10,222 nucleotides of DNA from positions 1 through 10,222 of the forward strand of contig JACUUP010000047.1 of NCBI GenBank assembly GCA_014859225.1, given 5' to 3'. The notes under the pieces were generated by a model, which was given only the letters and a program-made list of their open reading frames with translations, made no database searches and had not been told where the DNA came from. Source of the stretch: Candidatus Aerophobota bacterium. GTDB taxonomy: Bacteria; Aerophobota; Aerophobia; Aerophobales; B3-G15. The position numbers were made by a program, and so were the translations under genes. This document shows, in pieces, positions 5,133 through 10,222 of this stretch. Each line of letters starts with the position of its first letter. The first letter of the stretch is position 1.

Positions 5133-5651
5133 TTACAGTGACTTAATTTTTCTACTTAAAATTATTTCTTCCCTGTTTACACGAACCAGTGGATAACAAT
5201 CCATTTTCCTGGCTTTGCTGACCTTTGGACGATATATATCTTTAAATCTCTTAGAGTATTTTATAGCCTCTTTTTTATCCTGTGCTAAAATGTATTTTTT
5301 CTTAAAAAGATTCTGAACCTTTTTGCTGAACAGGGATATCTCGTAAAGTGGTTTTTCCTGAGGATTTTCTATTGAGAGAACTATATGTTTGGATGTTAGC
5401 TCTTGCAGGGTAAATCCGTGCATTTCATCTGTTTTTTCTGCTGCAGCCTCCTGGTTTTTAGCAATATAAAAAATTGGGGGTAGCTCGGGAACAGAATAAC
5501 TCTGGTTAAAGAAACTGAACATTCGCCGAAATTTTCCCATTCCTGATTCTGCAACAAACACAGGTTTTTGCCTGGAAATTAAATAAAACTCATAAAAATC
5601 TTCCTGCACAGCAATTTCTACTTTCCAGAGCTTATCTTCTCTTTGCTGCAT
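5133..5651 (-). CDS. Uncharacterised protein encoded downstream of cysE
   Basis: I do not recognise this 172-residue protein. It has no signal peptide and no membrane segment, so it is probably cytoplasmic. The N-terminal part alternates charged and aromatic residues (KLWKVEIAVQEDFYEFYL, 7-24), suggesting a beta-rich fold. The middle carries a helix-like AKNQEAAAEKTDEM (64-77). The C-terminal third is very basic (about 105-172), with several Lys clusters and a YRPKVSKARK stretch, so nucleic acid or anionic ligand binding is possible but unproven. The start is ATG 5651, 7 nt after the cysE stop, with only a weak upstream AAGG. It is most likely in one transcription unit with cysE. The stop faces the rpoD stop 27 nt away, with no clear terminator between. 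The length of the open frame and the tight spacing support a real gene. Confidence 0.72.
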   Translation of the reverse strand: MQQREDKLWKVEIAVQEDFYEFYLISRQKPVFVAESGMGKFRRMFSFFNQSYSVPELPPIFYIAKNQEAAAEKTDEMHGFTLQELTSKHIVLSIENPQEKPLYEISLFSKKVQNLFKKKYILAQDKKEAIKYSKRFKDIYRPKVSKARKMDCYPLVRVNREEIILSRKIKSL

Positions 5652-5658
5652 TTTTATG

Positions 5659-6300
5659 TTAGCCTTTCTTTACTTCTTCTTTTTTCCAGGTGTTTACAAC
5701 CTTTTCTACTTCATCCAGCTCTCGCCTGAAATCCTCCAGCTTCTCTAAGATTGGGTCTGGCAAATCACCATGCTCAAGAGCTATGCCTAATACCCTTTTC
5801 CCCCTGTGTTTAACCACTCTACCTGGAACTCCCACCACAGTAGAATCAGGAGGAACATCCCTTATAACTACAGAACCTGCTCCTATAACCGCATTATCAC
5901 CTATCTTTATATTCCCCAGCACCTTGGCACCTGCAGCAATGGTAACATTGTTTCCGACGGTAGGATGCCTCTTTCCTTTTTCCCTGCCTGTTCCTCCCAG
6001 GGTAACTTCCTGAAATAGCGTTACATTATCACCTATCTTAGTCGTCTCCCCGATGACAACTCCCATTCCGTGGTCTATAAAAAAGCCTTTTCCGATTTTT
6101 GCTCCGGGATGAATTTCAATTCCAGTGAAAAAACGAACAATCTGGGAGATAACTCTTGCCAGAAAGTAAAATTTGTGCCCATGTAAAAAATGAGATATTC
6201 TGTGCCAGAAAAGTGCATGCAGCCCCGGATAAAGAAGAACCTCCCATATACTTCTTGCAGCAGGGTCCCTTTCAAATATGGCTTTTACATTTTCAAACAT
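5659..6300 (-). CDS. cysE: Serine O-acetyltransferase CysE
   Basis: The enzyme transfers acetyl from acetyl-CoA to L-serine, giving O-acetylserine, the first step of cysteine synthesis in the cytoplasm. The protein has 213 residues, the short bacterial form, with a helical N-terminal domain (about 1-58) that begins [15 protein letters not shown] left-handed beta helix follows, made of hexapeptide repeats (about 61-160). Active-site residues visible are E62 and H64 in [11 protein letters not shown], where E. coli has Asp-Ile-His, the catalytic H77 in [12 protein letters not shown], and H112 in [15 protein letters not shown] (157-164) closes the helix, and an acidic, helical C-terminal tail follows, the region that docks into O-acetylserine sulfhydrylase in other species. 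The start is ATG 6300 with only a poor A-rich ribosome site. A promoter is seen at 6322-6349. No cysK or cysS lies beside it, unlike in many genomes. Confidence 0.95.
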
Positions 6301-6321
6301 TTTTTTTCTTATCCCGGGCTT

Positions 6322-6349
6322 ATTTTACCAAACGACAAAATAAAATCAA
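6322..6349 (-). promoter_or_regulatory. Sigma70-type promoter for cysE
   Basis: On the - strand, TTGATT (6349-6344) is followed after 16 bases by TAAAAT (6327-6322), 5 of 6 matches to the -10 consensus. Transcription would start near 6315, leaving a short leader before ATG 6300. The -35 box lies only 7 bases from the oppositely directed TTGACA at 6357-6362, so polymerases at the two promoters would compete or be controlled together. Confidence 0.55.
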
Positions 6350-6356
6350 GAGCTAT

Positions 6357-6384
6357 TTGACATCTGCCTGTATCCTCATAAAAT
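6357..6384 (+). promoter_or_regulatory. Sigma70-type promoter of the hydrogenase-sensor operon
   Basis: A perfect TTGACA (6357-6362), a 16-base spacer and TAAAAT (6379-6384) form a good housekeeping promoter. The expected transcription start is near 6390, about 25 bases before the small-subunit ATG. No sigma54-type GG/GC pair with correct spacing is visible between 6301 and 6415, so the NtrC-type regulator encoded in this operon probably does not drive its own operon from here. Confidence 0.65.
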
Positions 6385-6390
6385 TACAGG
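6367..6390. repeat. Inverted repeat over the hydrogenase promoter -10 box (candidate operator)
   Basis: CCTGTA (6367-6372) and TACAGG (6385-6390) are exact inverted copies separated by 12 bases, so the half-site centres are 18 bases apart. The gap holds the -10 box. The size and position suit a dimeric helix-turn-helix repressor site, but six-base arms can also arise by chance. Confidence 0.4.
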
Positions 6391-6401
6391 TGGATAAAAA
6401 G

Positions 6402-6409
6402 AAAAGGTG
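6402..6409 (+). promoter_or_regulatory. Ribosome binding site that sets the hydrogenase small-subunit start
   Basis: AAAAGGTG lies 6 bases before ATG 6416. The upstream in-frame GTG at 6407 is inside this site and cannot be served by it, so translation should begin at 6416. A near-identical arrangement precedes the response regulator (9753-9760). Confidence 0.65.
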
Positions 6410-6415
6410 TTAATT

Positions 6416-7414
6416 ATGGTTTATCTTCTCTGGCTGCAGGCTGGATGTTGTGGAGCGGAGACTACATCTTTGTTAAACTGTGAACAGCCTGATTTTTTGG
6501 CTTTTCTGGAAGAGTTTGACATAAATTTAATCTGGCATCCTTTTCTTAGCCCGCATAATCAGGGAAAAATATTAGACATTCTGAAAGATTTATCCAGGCA
6601 AAAGAGGAAACTGGACATTCTGGTGGTGGAAGGTGCAATTTATGATGGTCCTGAGGGAACTGGAAAATATGACCTTTTTTGCGGGATGCCTTTCAAGGAA
6701 TGGATAGTTAATCTGGCAAAGCTGACGAGATATCTGGTGGCTGTTGGAACCTGTGCCTGTTTTGGAGGAATCGGGGCAAGTGGAAAAAATTTAATGGAAG
6801 CTACAGGACTTCAGTTTTTTAGAGAAAAGAAGGGAGGGTTTTTGGGAGAGGACTACAGGTCAAAGGAAAATTTACCCGTGATTAATATCGCTGGCTGCCC
6901 TGCCCATCCTGACTGGATTACAGAATCCCTGGTTAGCCTTGCAAAAGATGAGATGAGAAGTTGCGACCTTGATGATTTTCAAAGACCACGCATTTTTTAC
7001 GAGAAATTAGCCCATCATGCCTGCCCTCGAAATGAGTATTATGAGTTTAAGGCATCGGCGCAATGTTATTCTCAGCAGGGCTGTCTCTTTGAAAATCTTG
7101 GGTGTAAAGGCACACAGTGTGAATCTGATTGTAACGAGCGACTGTGGCTGACTCGGACCGGTAGTTGCACCCGGGGAGGATTTCCCTGCATCTCCTGCAC
7201 TTCACCCCGTTTTCCCGATGGTTTTTTACCCTTCTTTGAGACATTAAAAATAGGTAACATACCCACCACCCTGCCCCTTGATGTGCCCAAAGCCTGGTAT
7301 GTTGGAATAAGTGGACTGGCAAAGCTTGCCTGTCCCAAAAGGCTTCTTGTAAACGCCACTTCTTTTAAACCGGTAAAATTAGTTTTTCCAAAAGTAGCTA
7401 AAAATGATAAATGA
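6416..7414 (+). CDS. Group 2 [NiFe]-hydrogenase small subunit, HoxB/HupU-like (H2 sensor)
   Basis: This is the electron-transfer subunit of a cytoplasmic [NiFe] hydrogenase. It has 332 residues and no Tat signal. The whole chain follows the HupU/HoxB and HupS pattern: LWLQAG (5-10), VEGAIYDGPEGTG (71-83), PVINIAGCPAHPDW (154-167), HACPRNEYYEFKAS (201-214) and GCKGTQ (229-234). The proximal cluster should use four Cys; C12, C113 and C161 are present, but the CxxC partner is E15 (CGAE). An extra Cys (C11) precedes C12, and C115 follows C113. The distal cluster has H200, C203, C223 and C230. The medial region has C239, C251, C258 and C261, so a four-Cys cluster is possible. The stop overlaps the large-subunit start by 11 nt. 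The kinase and regulator that follow suggest a hydrogen sensor rather than an energy-yielding enzyme. Related group 2a uptake enzymes remain an alternative. Confidence 0.9.
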   Translation: MVYLLWLQAGCCGAETTSLLNCEQPDFLAFLEEFDINLIWHPFLSPHNQGKILDILKDLSRQKRKLDILVVEGAIYDGPEGTGKYDLFCGMPFKEWIVNLAKLTRYLVAVGTCACFGGIGASGKNLMEATGLQFFREKKGGFLGEDYRSKENLPVINIAGCPAHPDWITESLVSLAKDEMRSCDLDDFQRPRIFYEKLAHHACPRNEYYEFKASAQCYSQQGCLFENLGCKGTQCESDCNERLWLTRTGSCTRGGFPCISCTSPRFPDGFLPFFETLKIGNIPTTLPLDVPKAWYVGISGLAKLACPKRLLVNATSFKPVKLVFPKVAKNDK

Positions 7415-8870
7415 GCTTATTATTAGACCTTTTCCCCGTATAGGAGGTGACCTTGAGATAAAAGTTTCACTTGATGATAGCAAGGTAGTTGACTCTTATT
7501 GTTCAGGGACAGCTTTTAGAGGGTTTGAAAATCTTTTGAAGGGGAAATCTGTTATGGACTGTCTTGGTTTTGTATGTAGAATATGTGGAGTTTGTGGAGT
7601 TTCGCATTCAATTGCTGCCAGCAAAGCTATGAAGAAAATATTTGGTGTAAAAGTGCCCCAGAATGGATATTTGTGCAAAAACATAAGTTTAGCTACGGAG
7701 ATTGTGTTAAATCAGCTCGGTCACTTCTACCTGCTTTTTGCACCCGACCTTACAGATAAAAGGTACTCCTGTCATCCTCTTTATCCTGAGGTGGCAAAGA
7801 GGTTTTCTGCCCTCTCTGGAACATCTTATAAACACTTTATCCATGCCAGGAGAAAGCTTCTTGTCATAATGGGTCTTTTTGCTGGAAAATGGCCCAATAC
7901 TTTAGCAGTTCATCCTGGAGGAGTTACAAAAACTTTAAATAAAAGCGAGTTGATAAGATGTCTTGGAAGTTTAGTAGAGTTTCGGAATTTTTTAGAACAA
8001 AATTTACTTGGATGTGACATTGATGATTGGCTGGAGAAAAAAAATTTAAAAGATATAGAAAGCTTGTGCAGTCAAAATAATTACCACAGCGACCTTGGTA
8101 TATTCGCAAAATTTGGCAAAGAAATAGGTTTACCTTTGCTTGGCAAAAGCACGGGAAAATTTCTATGTTACAGTGGATACGAAAATGCTCAGGGAAAAAG
8201 CCTTTATAAGAGCGGTTTTTACAACAGCGCTATTTATCCTCTGGAGGTTGAGAAAATAACCGAGGAACAAAGTTTTAGTTTTTTTGAAGGGGAAAAGGCT
8301 CATCCCTTTGAAGGTTTTACAGAACCTTTTGTGGAAAAAAAGAAAGCTTATAGCTGGGTAAAATCTCCTCGTTATTCAGGAGAGGTGGTGGAAGTTGGAC
8401 CTCTTTCACGCATGGTGATTAATGAAGATTCTCTAATCAGCGACCTTTTTGAGAAGATGGGCTCAAATGTTTACTCAAGAGTCCTTGCCAGACTACACGA
8501 GGCTATATTCCTTACATCAAAGATAGGTGAGTGGCTCAAGAGGGTGAATCCAAACAAACCTTTCTATAACAAAGTGGGTAACATAAAACGCTCAAAAGGA
8601 GAAGGACTAATAGAGGCAGCAAGGGGTGCTCTTGGTCACTGGATTAAGGTGGAGAAAGGATATGTAAAAAACTATCAAATTATCACCCCCAGCAGCTGGA
8701 ATTTTTCTCCCCGGGACTCCCTGGGAGTTCCCGGTATTTTAGAACAAACTCTTATAGGCACAACTCTCAAAGAACCGACAGAGCCTCTTGAGATTTTCCA
8801 TATAGTAAGGTCATATGACCCTTGTTTTTTCTGCAGCGTTCATGTAAGTAAAGTGAGGAAAAGGAAATGA
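7404..8870 (+). CDS. Group 2 [NiFe]-hydrogenase large subunit, HoxC/HupV-like (H2 sensor)
   Basis: This subunit carries the NiFe(CN)2CO centre where H2 binds. It has 488 residues. The L1 motif is RICGVCGVSH (59-68), with C61 and C64. L2 is DPCFFCSVH (472-480), with C474 and C477. Group 2 signatures are clear: HFYLLFAPD (107-115), AVHPGGVTK (168-176), EAARGALGHW (404-413), with the active-site Arg R407, and SSWNFSPRDSLGVPG (430-444). Three points are odd. RIxGD near the N-terminus reads R12-I-G-G-D, with Gly14 where the proton-transfer Glu is expected. The gas-channel pair looks like V63 and L111, not the Ile/Phe of known regulatory hydrogenases. Only eight residues (VSKVRKRK) follow His480, shorter than a usual cleaved tail. 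No maturation protease gene is in the window. Start ATG 7404 lies within the small-subunit gene, and the stop overlaps the kinase start (ATGA). Confidence 0.92.
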   Translation: MINELIIRPFPRIGGDLEIKVSLDDSKVVDSYCSGTAFRGFENLLKGKSVMDCLGFVCRICGVCGVSHSIAASKAMKKIFGVKVPQNGYLCKNISLATEIVLNQLGHFYLLFAPDLTDKRYSCHPLYPEVAKRFSALSGTSYKHFIHARRKLLVIMGLFAGKWPNTLAVHPGGVTKTLNKSELIRCLGSLVEFRNFLEQNLLGCDIDDWLEKKNLKDIESLCSQNNYHSDLGIFAKFGKEIGLPLLGKSTGKFLCYSGYENAQGKSLYKSGFYNSAIYPLEVEKITEEQSFSFFEGEKAHPFEGFTEPFVEKKKAYSWVKSPRYSGEVVEVGPLSRMVINEDSLISDLFEKMGSNVYSRVLARLHEAIFLTSKIGEWLKRVNPNKPFYNKVGNIKRSKGEGLIEAARGALGHWIKVEKGYVKNYQIITPSSWNFSPRDSLGVPGILEQTLIGTTLKEPTEPLEIFHIVRSYDPCFFCSVHVSKVRKRK

Positions 8871-9760
8871 GCGTAAACAAAACTGATTATTCTTCTGAAA
8901 TTCTTCAAGAAAAGATGTGGATTGAGATAATCCAGAGTATGGAGTACCTGTATGCAGAACTTGCCGACAACCAGGCTCGATTAGAGAAGAAAAACGAAGA
9001 ACTAAAAAAAACTTATGAAGAGCTAAAAAAAGCTTATGAGGAACTTCAAACTCTTCAAGTTCAATTAATTCATTCGGAAAAGTTAGCTTCTATTGGTAGA
9101 TTAGCCGCAGGAGTTGCACATGAGATAAACAATCCTTTAACAGGTATACTCACCTTTGCACATTTGTTACTATTTAATATGCCGGATGATGATAGGCGAA
9201 AAAAAGATGTGGAAGTAATTGTTAAGGAGGCTAAGCGTTGCCGGCTAATCACGCAGAATCTTTTAGATTTTGCAAGACAGAGCGAGCCTAAAAAAACAAA
9301 AGTAGATATAAATATTGTTATAGGAAAAACACTCTCCCTTGTAGAAAATCAATCCTATTTTCAGAATATCAAAATAATAAAAGATTTTAACTTATACCTG
9401 CCCCTTTTACTAATTGATTCAAACCAGATTAAGCAGGTTTTTATGAATGTAATTCTCAATGCTCAGGAGGCTATGCCTCAGGGAGGATTTTTGACCATAG
9501 GCACTGATTTTAGTGAGGATGGAAAGTTTGTGCAAGTTGAATTTATTGATACAGGATGTGGAATATCCGAAAAGAACTTAGGAAAAGTATTTGACCCTTT
9601 TTTCACCACCAAACAGGTGGGAAAAGGAACAGGATTGGGGCTTGCTATAAGCTATGGAATTATAAAAAGTCATGCAGGGGAAATTATTGTACGCAGCAAA
9701 GAAAATAAAGGCACAACCGTTATTATAAGATTGCCCATTAAAAATAAAAAAGAAAGGTGA
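8867..9760 (+). CDS. Soluble histidine kinase of the hydrogen-sensor operon (HoxJ/HupT-like role)
   Basis: This 297-residue sensor kinase would phosphorylate the regulator encoded next. It has no membrane segment and no PAS, GAF or other recognisable input domain. Residues 1-35 are short and helical. Residues 36-70 form a charged coiled coil with a repeated EELKK(T/A)YEEL unit. The HisKA domain has the phospho-accepting H85 in GVAHEINNPLTG. The ATPase domain shows the N-box with N194 and N198, DTGCGI (228-233), the F-box FDPFFTTK (242-249) and GKGTGLGLA (252-260), all intact and NtrB-like. It starts at ATG 8867, overlapping the large-subunit stop, after the strong site GAGGAAAAGGA (8855-8865). 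The overlap argues for equal expression with the hydrogenase, and the kinase probably senses it by direct contact. In HoxJ a PAS domain does this; here the N-terminal helix and coiled coil would have to. The sensor role is an inference from context. Confidence 0.93.
   Translation: MSVNKTDYSSEILQEKMWIEIIQSMEYLYAELADNQARLEKKNEELKKTYEELKKAYEELQTLQVQLIHSEKLASIGRLAAGVAHEINNPLTGILTFAHLLLFNMPDDDRRKKDVEVIVKEAKRCRLITQNLLDFARQSEPKKTKVDINIVIGKTLSLVENQSYFQNIKIIKDFNLYLPLLLIDSNQIKQVFMNVILNAQEAMPQGGFLTIGTDFSEDGKFVQVEFIDTGCGISEKNLGKVFDPFFTTKQVGKGTGLGLAISYGIIKSHAGEIIVRSKENKGTTVIIRLPIKNKKER
9753..9760 (+). promoter_or_regulatory. Ribosome binding site that sets the TTG start of the response regulator
   Basis: AAAGGTGA lies 6 bases before TTG 9767 and overlaps the kinase stop codon (9758-9760). 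No ATG or GTG in the regulator frame lies near the start of the receiver domain, so TTG is the only well placed initiator. Confidence 0.7.
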
Positions 9761-9766
9761 GAGCAC

Positions 9767-10222
9767 TTGTTAGAAAGAGCAAAAGTAGTAGTAATAGATG
9801 ATGAGCCTGTAGTGTGTGAAAGTTGCAAGCGCATTCTTGAGCGGGCAGGCTATCTGGTAGAAACTTTCACAAATAGCAAAGAGGCTCTTGAGAGAGTTAG
9901 TCAGGAGATATTTGATGCAGCCATCGTTGATTTAAAAATGCCTGATATTGACGGTATGGAGCTTCTCAGAAGGATAAAACAGGAATACCCCGAGATTATG
10001 GTGGTAATGATTACCGGTTATTCTACTGTGGATACGGCGGTTCAGGCTATGAAAATGGGAGCTTTTGATTATGTACCCAAACCTTTCACCCCCGATGAGC
10101 TGGAGATTGTAGTGAAAAATGCACTTGAGAAAAAAAGGCTCCTCTTTGAAAACAGGTATCTGCGCACTCAACTTAAGCAAAGGTATGGATTTGGCAATAT
10201 AATAGGTAAGAGCAAAAAGATA
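9767..10222 (+). CDS. NtrC-family response regulator, partial at the right edge (HoxA/HupR-like role)
   Basis: The first 152 codons of a response regulator are present; the gene continues past the window. The receiver domain (about 5-122) has the acidic pair D11-D12, phospho-acceptor D55 in IVDLKMPD, T83 in MITGYS and K105 in PKPF. A helical linker (about 118-140) follows. Then comes FGNIIGKSKKI, the usual opening of the AAA+ sigma54-activation domain of NtrC-type proteins, cut off before the Walker A motif. The start is TTG 9767, giving (M)LERAKVVVIDDEP. It lies 6 nt after the kinase stop, so the two form a cognate pair. By analogy with HoxA and HupR it would activate sigma54 promoters of hydrogenase genes elsewhere in the genome. 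Whether a DNA-binding helix-turn-helix ends the protein cannot be seen. Confidence 0.93.
   Translation, partial: MLERAKVVVIDDEPVVCESCKRILERAGYLVETFTNSKEALERVSQEIFDAAIVDLKMPDIDGMELLRRIKQEYPEIMVVMITGYSTVDTAVQAMKMGAFDYVPKPFTPDELEIVVKNALEKKRLLFENRYLRTQLKQRYGFGNIIGKSKKI

Follow-up and report, generated by a model that had tools for sequence, protein, structure and literature searches.

The four genes that occupy the end of this locus raise the question of whether a hydrogenase-based sensor outside the Proteobacteria still senses H2 when a residue of its proton path has been replaced. The window analysed here is the entire contig C132 (10222 bases) of an Aerophobota MAG (1.8-Mb, 91% complete), and an earlier note on this DNA had described the genes as a hydrogen-sensing two-component module. 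The identity of the module is secure. We further consider it probable, at odds of roughly two in three, that it is an intact gas-sensing two-component module sharing a common ancestor with HoxBC-HoxJ-HoxA and HupUV-HupT-HupR, with a PAS-less signal path and an adjacent sigma54 target.

The features of the module and its upstream promoter-like site given here all lie on the plus strand. The run consists of the HoxB/HupU-like small subunit (6416-7414) and the HoxC/HupV-like large subunit (7404-8870) of a cytosolic sensor hydrogenase, a soluble HoxJ/HupT-like histidine kinase (8867-9760) and the receiver and linker part of a probable NtrC-type response regulator (9767-10222), cut at the contig end. 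The two subunit genes overlap by 11 nt and the large subunit and kinase genes by 4 nt (ATGA); a 6-nt gap separates the kinase gene from the regulator gene, which starts with TTG at 9767 and whose reading frame runs past the window end. Pfam domains scored far over their cut-offs for the small subunit (Oxidored_q6, NiFe_hyd_SSU_C), large subunit (NiFeSe_Hases), kinase (HisKA, HATPase_c) and regulator (Response_reg). ORF calls and Pfam domains thus bear out the tight four-gene run that had been described, and the same is true of the intact kinase (phospho-acceptor His; N, G1, F and G2 boxes), the intact receiver (Asp/Thr/Lys) and the statement that the window holds no catalytic hydrogenase or hyp gene. 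Upstream of the operon, a sigma70-type promoter-like site, TTGACA-N16-TAAAAT (6357-6384), agrees with the consensus in 11/12 positions; it has the best score of the region and is a consensus match only. The 14-mer TTGACAYCTGCCTG occurs in exactly two copies in the 1.8-Mb genome, both on this contig, one in the promoter-like site (6357-6370) and one immediately 5' of a zapA-like ORF (66-79), and the pair is possibly a shared promoter or operator. Elsewhere in the window, the minus strand encodes a 172-aa protein without a Pfam match (5133-5651), adjoining a serine acetyltransferase-like (hexapeptide repeat) gene.

NCBIfam and PDB searches alone gave an ambiguous family assignment, since the closest solved structure for both subunits was the group 2a enzyme Huc of Mycobacterium and no HoxBC structure was found among the PDB matches; annotated plasmid loci and relatives from GTDB genomes were therefore used in the trees. 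In two maximum-likelihood trees the large subunit falls into a clade with sequences of other Aerophobota, Latescibacterota, SM23_31 and Planctomycetota, which is the sister of the proteobacterial HoxC/HupV proteins of group 2b (support 98/93 and 95/89), the window sequence lying outside the proteobacterial 2b set itself. The group 2a set is monophyletic without it (100/100) and a 2c-like set also stands apart, these subgroup labels having been assigned from gene context and annotation, not by HydDB. The end branch of the window sequence is long (0.69-0.73), and the nearest relatives with the same module are the Aerophobetes (Aerophobota) MAGs Ae_b3b (NJBP01) and E44_bin3 (SOJT01). The small subunit keeps 42 of 43 invariant columns and carries a signature, GSCTRGG plus LP.D.PKAW...NA, that is common to HoxB/HupU and absent from 2a and 2c-like enzymes; its C-terminus is of the sensor type (TLPLDVPKAWY...NATSFK). 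A 50-residue extension of HoxB is required for the double-dimeric form of that sensor (PMC5665086). As no N-terminal extension precedes MVYLLWLQAGCCG in the window protein, it has no Tat signal, in agreement with the earlier reading of group 2 hydrogenase motifs without that signal. The further claim, that this is a divergent version of the HoxBC-J-A/HupUV-T-R-type module in another lineage, altered in sensor and kinase, was likewise upheld. No report of such a system in Aerophobota was found in the literature searched, of which coverage was partial (PMC6472368). The next-best match among 386 genomes, in G242, was rejected as a sensor: it is a group 2 protein with RIEGH and no sensor signature, and no neighbouring kinase was seen.

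The large subunit retains all four Ni-site cysteines (C61, C64, C474 and C477) and, aligned with 27 other sequences, 33 of the 35 columns invariant in those 27, the departures being Glu14 to Gly and Ala31 to Ser. Gly14 (codon GGA, 7443-7445) occupies the position of HoxC Glu13, the proton-transferring residue in RxEG, a motif that reads RIGGD in the window and RxEG in 5/5 other members of the clade. When the comparison was widened, RxEG was found in 48 large subunits not belonging to group 4, with the window protein as the sole exception; in one more row the sequence broke off ahead of the motif, and the seven rows of group 4/NuoD-like type are motif-less by family. HoxC with E13 exchanged reportedly still bound H2 but had lost activity and regulation (Gebler et al. 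2007). The glutamate acts as the outer relay of a proton path from Glu to Cys (PMC11212049), and in the current model H2 sensing depends on H2 being activated continuously, with transfer of protons and electrons (PMC10073562). From this model and the exchange result it follows that the window protein may be no H2 sensor at all; of the description as a hydrogen-sensing module, membership of the sensor family stands, but H2 sensing by the window copy is only putative, since its proton-path glutamate is Gly. The gas channel is altered as well. Val63 (7590-7592) and Leu111 (7734-7736) stand at the positions of HoxC Ile62 and Phe110. Three of the five sister sequences have I/F there, as HoxC does; V/L is found in the window and in aligned group 1 enzymes. 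The narrow gas channel has been credited with the O2 and CO resistance of the sensors (PMC5665086). Finally, a tail of eight residues, VSKVRKRK (8844-8867), follows the terminal DPCFFCSVH, whereas HoxC/HupV end at the His; the tail is longer in the Aerophobota, Latescibacterota and SM23_31 relatives and the Planctomycetota protein ends at the His. AlphaFold2, run on the large subunit with six sequences, gave a model of low quality (mean pLDDT 55).

The partner kinase begins with a helix, WIEII..ME..YAELA..Q..LE.KN..L (8909-9004), that is common only to HoxJ/HupT-type kinases. When three proteobacterial HoxJ/HupT kinases were used to build an HMM of residues 1-60, it matched all kinases of the new clade, that of the window with an E value of 1.5e-7; the next matches were a 5'-truncated HupT (5e-4) and, as the best unrelated ORF, one at 0.18. 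Judged by this sequence specificity, the helix is a family signature and a candidate docking element. In the window kinase no PAS domain was matched at E values up to 10, and one was found in 6/6 other kinases tested (HoxJ, HupT and four sister kinases). Where the relatives carry PAS, the window gene has two 21-nt heptad repeats (8996-9037). Collapse of these repeats during assembly is an unlikely cause of the PAS loss, as they are only 21 nt in length and carry mismatches, and the longest exact run of about 10 nt (by eye) is short for an assembler k-mer. AlphaFold2 predicted a single continuous helix over residues 10-104 that starts in the docking segment and extends into DHp, with a mean pLDDT of 77 and values of 54-61 across residues 61-90.

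These kinase features bear on one alternative, namely that the protein is an ordinary H2 sensor like HoxBC and that Gly14 arose as an error in the consensus or assembly of the MAG, GGA standing for GAA. The two codons differ by a single base, 48 among 49 full-length large subunits not belonging to group 4 have Glu and the remainder of the module is conserved; against this, both gas-channel positions are changed too, the end branch is long (0.69-0.73) and the kinase has lost its PAS domain, which jointly suggest real divergence, so that an error is possible but rather unlikely.

On the output side, the window holds 152 aa of the regulator, receiver and linker, and its NtrC-type nature is for that reason not visible there: the receiver that had been claimed is in the window and the AAA+ and HTH_8 domains very probably lie on another contig. 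On the minus strand of C192 (L047), positions 6119-7084 encode a 5'-truncated sigma54-activator AAA+ domain followed by HTH_8. The ends of C192 and of the window share the 12 nt GAGCAAAAAGAT in the same frame, with the final window base mismatched, and the joined regulator is 53% identical to that of Ae_b3b and 56% to that of SM23_31. The only other NtrC-like gene of the genome with a strong AAA+ match gives 44% and 43%, respectively. Judging from these matches, the window regulator very probably continues on C192. Its GAFTGA loop reads GSFTDA, as it does in Ae_b3b. In C. necator the active form of the regulator is the unphosphorylated one (PMC10073562).

As the earlier note had proposed to check, rpoN is present in the genome, with its sigma54 RpoN box intact, and further [NiFe]-hydrogenases were found on C131 and C16; the hyp genes present include hypD and hypE. 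The outcomes named in that note as refuting its reading, a large subunit placed among group 2a enzymes or a genome lacking rpoN and any other hydrogenase, were thus not observed. On C131 a cytosolic HydAB adjoins MTHFR-family genes; on C16 a group 4-type complex keeps both CxxC pairs and lies beside genes read as those of a CODH/ACS cluster. The expectation that the targets lie elsewhere was not confirmed. The strongest well-placed sigma54-type site, TTTGGCATAAAAATTGC (C192 5975-5989), lies directly after the regulator gene, 32 nt 5' of a receiver gene, and the sigma54 promoters sought at the other hydrogenase loci were missing, no site of comparable strength being found 5' of the C131 HydAB, C16 group 4 or C158 hypDE genes. 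Exact TGGCACN5TTGC matches proved no guide: of four in the genome, three are intragenic and the fourth is not followed by a gene start within 200 nt. The C192 site alone combined an intergenic position, the right strand and conservation. In Ae_b3b, TTTGGTATAAAAATTGC is found 16 nt 5' of the orthologous receiver gene, downstream of a terminator-like hairpin, and in SM23_31 TGGCATATTATTTGC is found 51 nt 5' of a receiver-protein gene that is itself upstream of the sensor genes. These sites are consensus matches only, with a chance of about 0.004 and 0.02 per gap from local frequency. Their recurrence in three genomes points to the adjacent receiver gene as one likely target of the module. The predicted transcript extends into a NuoL/Mrp-like subunit gene in the window genome and, in Ae_b3b, into a receiver-kinase gene and then a group 3b hydrogenase. 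The NuoL/MrpA-like membrane subunit on C192 (L047 3569-5548) is isolated, with no complete complex beside it. The protein encoded behind the SM23_31 site (L059 4045-5814) unites two receiver domains with a domain like GCV_H and a protease domain like HycI.

An intact regulator and promoter speak against a decaying sensor, whose hydrogenase part would be non-functional and whose kinase would be constitutive or respond to another cue. Such decay would explain why a near-universal active-site residue and the PAS domain are missing, and the large subunit does diverge slightly faster than the small subunit predicts (-1.4 sd). However, none of the four reading frames is broken, the genes are translationally coupled or closely packed, the other invariant residues of both subunits are kept (33/35 and 42/43 columns), and the intact kinase and regulator residues speak against general decay; we regard decay as unlikely. 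With kinase chemistry, regulator and promoter intact and the input altered at three points, the evidence from this one genome speaks for an input half that was retuned rather than plainly decayed.

In the preferred reading, that of an intact module with a common ancestor with HoxBC-HoxJ-HoxA/HupUV-HupT-HupR, the cytosolic HoxBC-like dimer would bind the kinase through the C-terminus of the small subunit and the N-terminal helix of the kinase, and the redox or ligand state of the dimer would set kinase activity. The kinase would phosphorylate the NtrC-type regulator, which would drive sigma54 transcription of the receiver gene directly downstream and then of the NuoL/Mrp-like membrane subunit gene. 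In the window copy, because the PAS domain is lost, the signal would pass from the docking helix directly to the dimerisation helix of the kinase. As the proton-gate glutamate is lost, continuous turnover of H2 would probably be very slow, if it occurs at all, in which case the sensor would report ligand occupancy or use another proton route. A more specific version, in which the sensor signals by ligand binding instead of turnover, through bound H2 or CO acting on the PAS-less helical kinase, is suggested by the missing glutamate, the gas channel opened to Val/Leu and the CODH/ACS-type genes of the organism; we consider it speculative and quite unlikely.

The preferred reading may be set against known systems. 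HoxBC-HoxJ-HoxA of C. necator likewise comprises a cytosolic sensor of small and large subunit and a soluble kinase that begins with this N-terminal helix; its regulator is NtrC-type, as that of the window very probably is. It has, however, a kinase PAS domain, E13, I62/F110, Q67 and a large subunit ending at the His, for which the window has no PAS, Gly, Val/Leu, His (versus Q67) and the 8-aa tail. The HupUV-HupT-HupR systems of the Azospirillum and Afipia plasmid loci have the same sensor and kinase families, but their kinase gene lies 5' of the sensor genes, and PAS and E13 are present. The sister modules (Ae_b3b, E44_bin3, Latescibacterota, SM23_31 and Planctomycetota) belong to the same clade, with the kinase gene beside the sensor genes; an NtrC gene was seen in Ae_b3b, SM23_31 and Planctomycetota, the contigs of the other two ending earlier. 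The order small subunit, large subunit, kinase and NtrC regulator is the same in Ae_b3b and Planctomycetota, and in SM23_31 a protease-like gene stands between large subunit and kinase. Unlike the window, the sisters have Glu in 5/5 sequences and PAS in the four kinases tested; the sigma54-type site 5' of a receiver gene is shared with Ae_b3b and SM23_31. Mycobacterium smegmatis Huc, the best PDB match over near the full length of both subunits, belongs with the other 2a enzymes to a separate clade with another small-subunit C-terminus and no kinase beside the 2a loci examined. That the window encodes a group 2a-type uptake hydrogenase standing beside a two-component pair by chance is hardly credible: Huc is the best solved relative, but the PDB matches included no HoxBC structure, both trees exclude 2a, the small subunit carries the sensor signature and other phyla have kept the same arrangement of genes with kinase and regulator.

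With this locus, sensing of the HoxBC-J-A type extends to phyla that are uncultured and presumably anaerobic, where it has a likely sigma54 output of its own. It also provides a natural variant bearing on whether turnover of H2 is a requirement for H2 sensors, and on whether PAS is needed in coupling a hydrogenase to its kinase; the common N-terminal kinase helix is a concrete docking candidate, testable in C. necator.

Two further hydrogenase-related arrangements were observed in the genome. On C131 (L005 6030-10058), HydAB is followed by genes for an MTHFR C-terminal-domain protein and MTHFR, possibly an H2-driven methylene-THF reductase unit. On C260 (L080 3-2369), a single ORF encodes a HycI-type maturation protease domain, the only HycI match of the genome, fused N-terminally to HypF.
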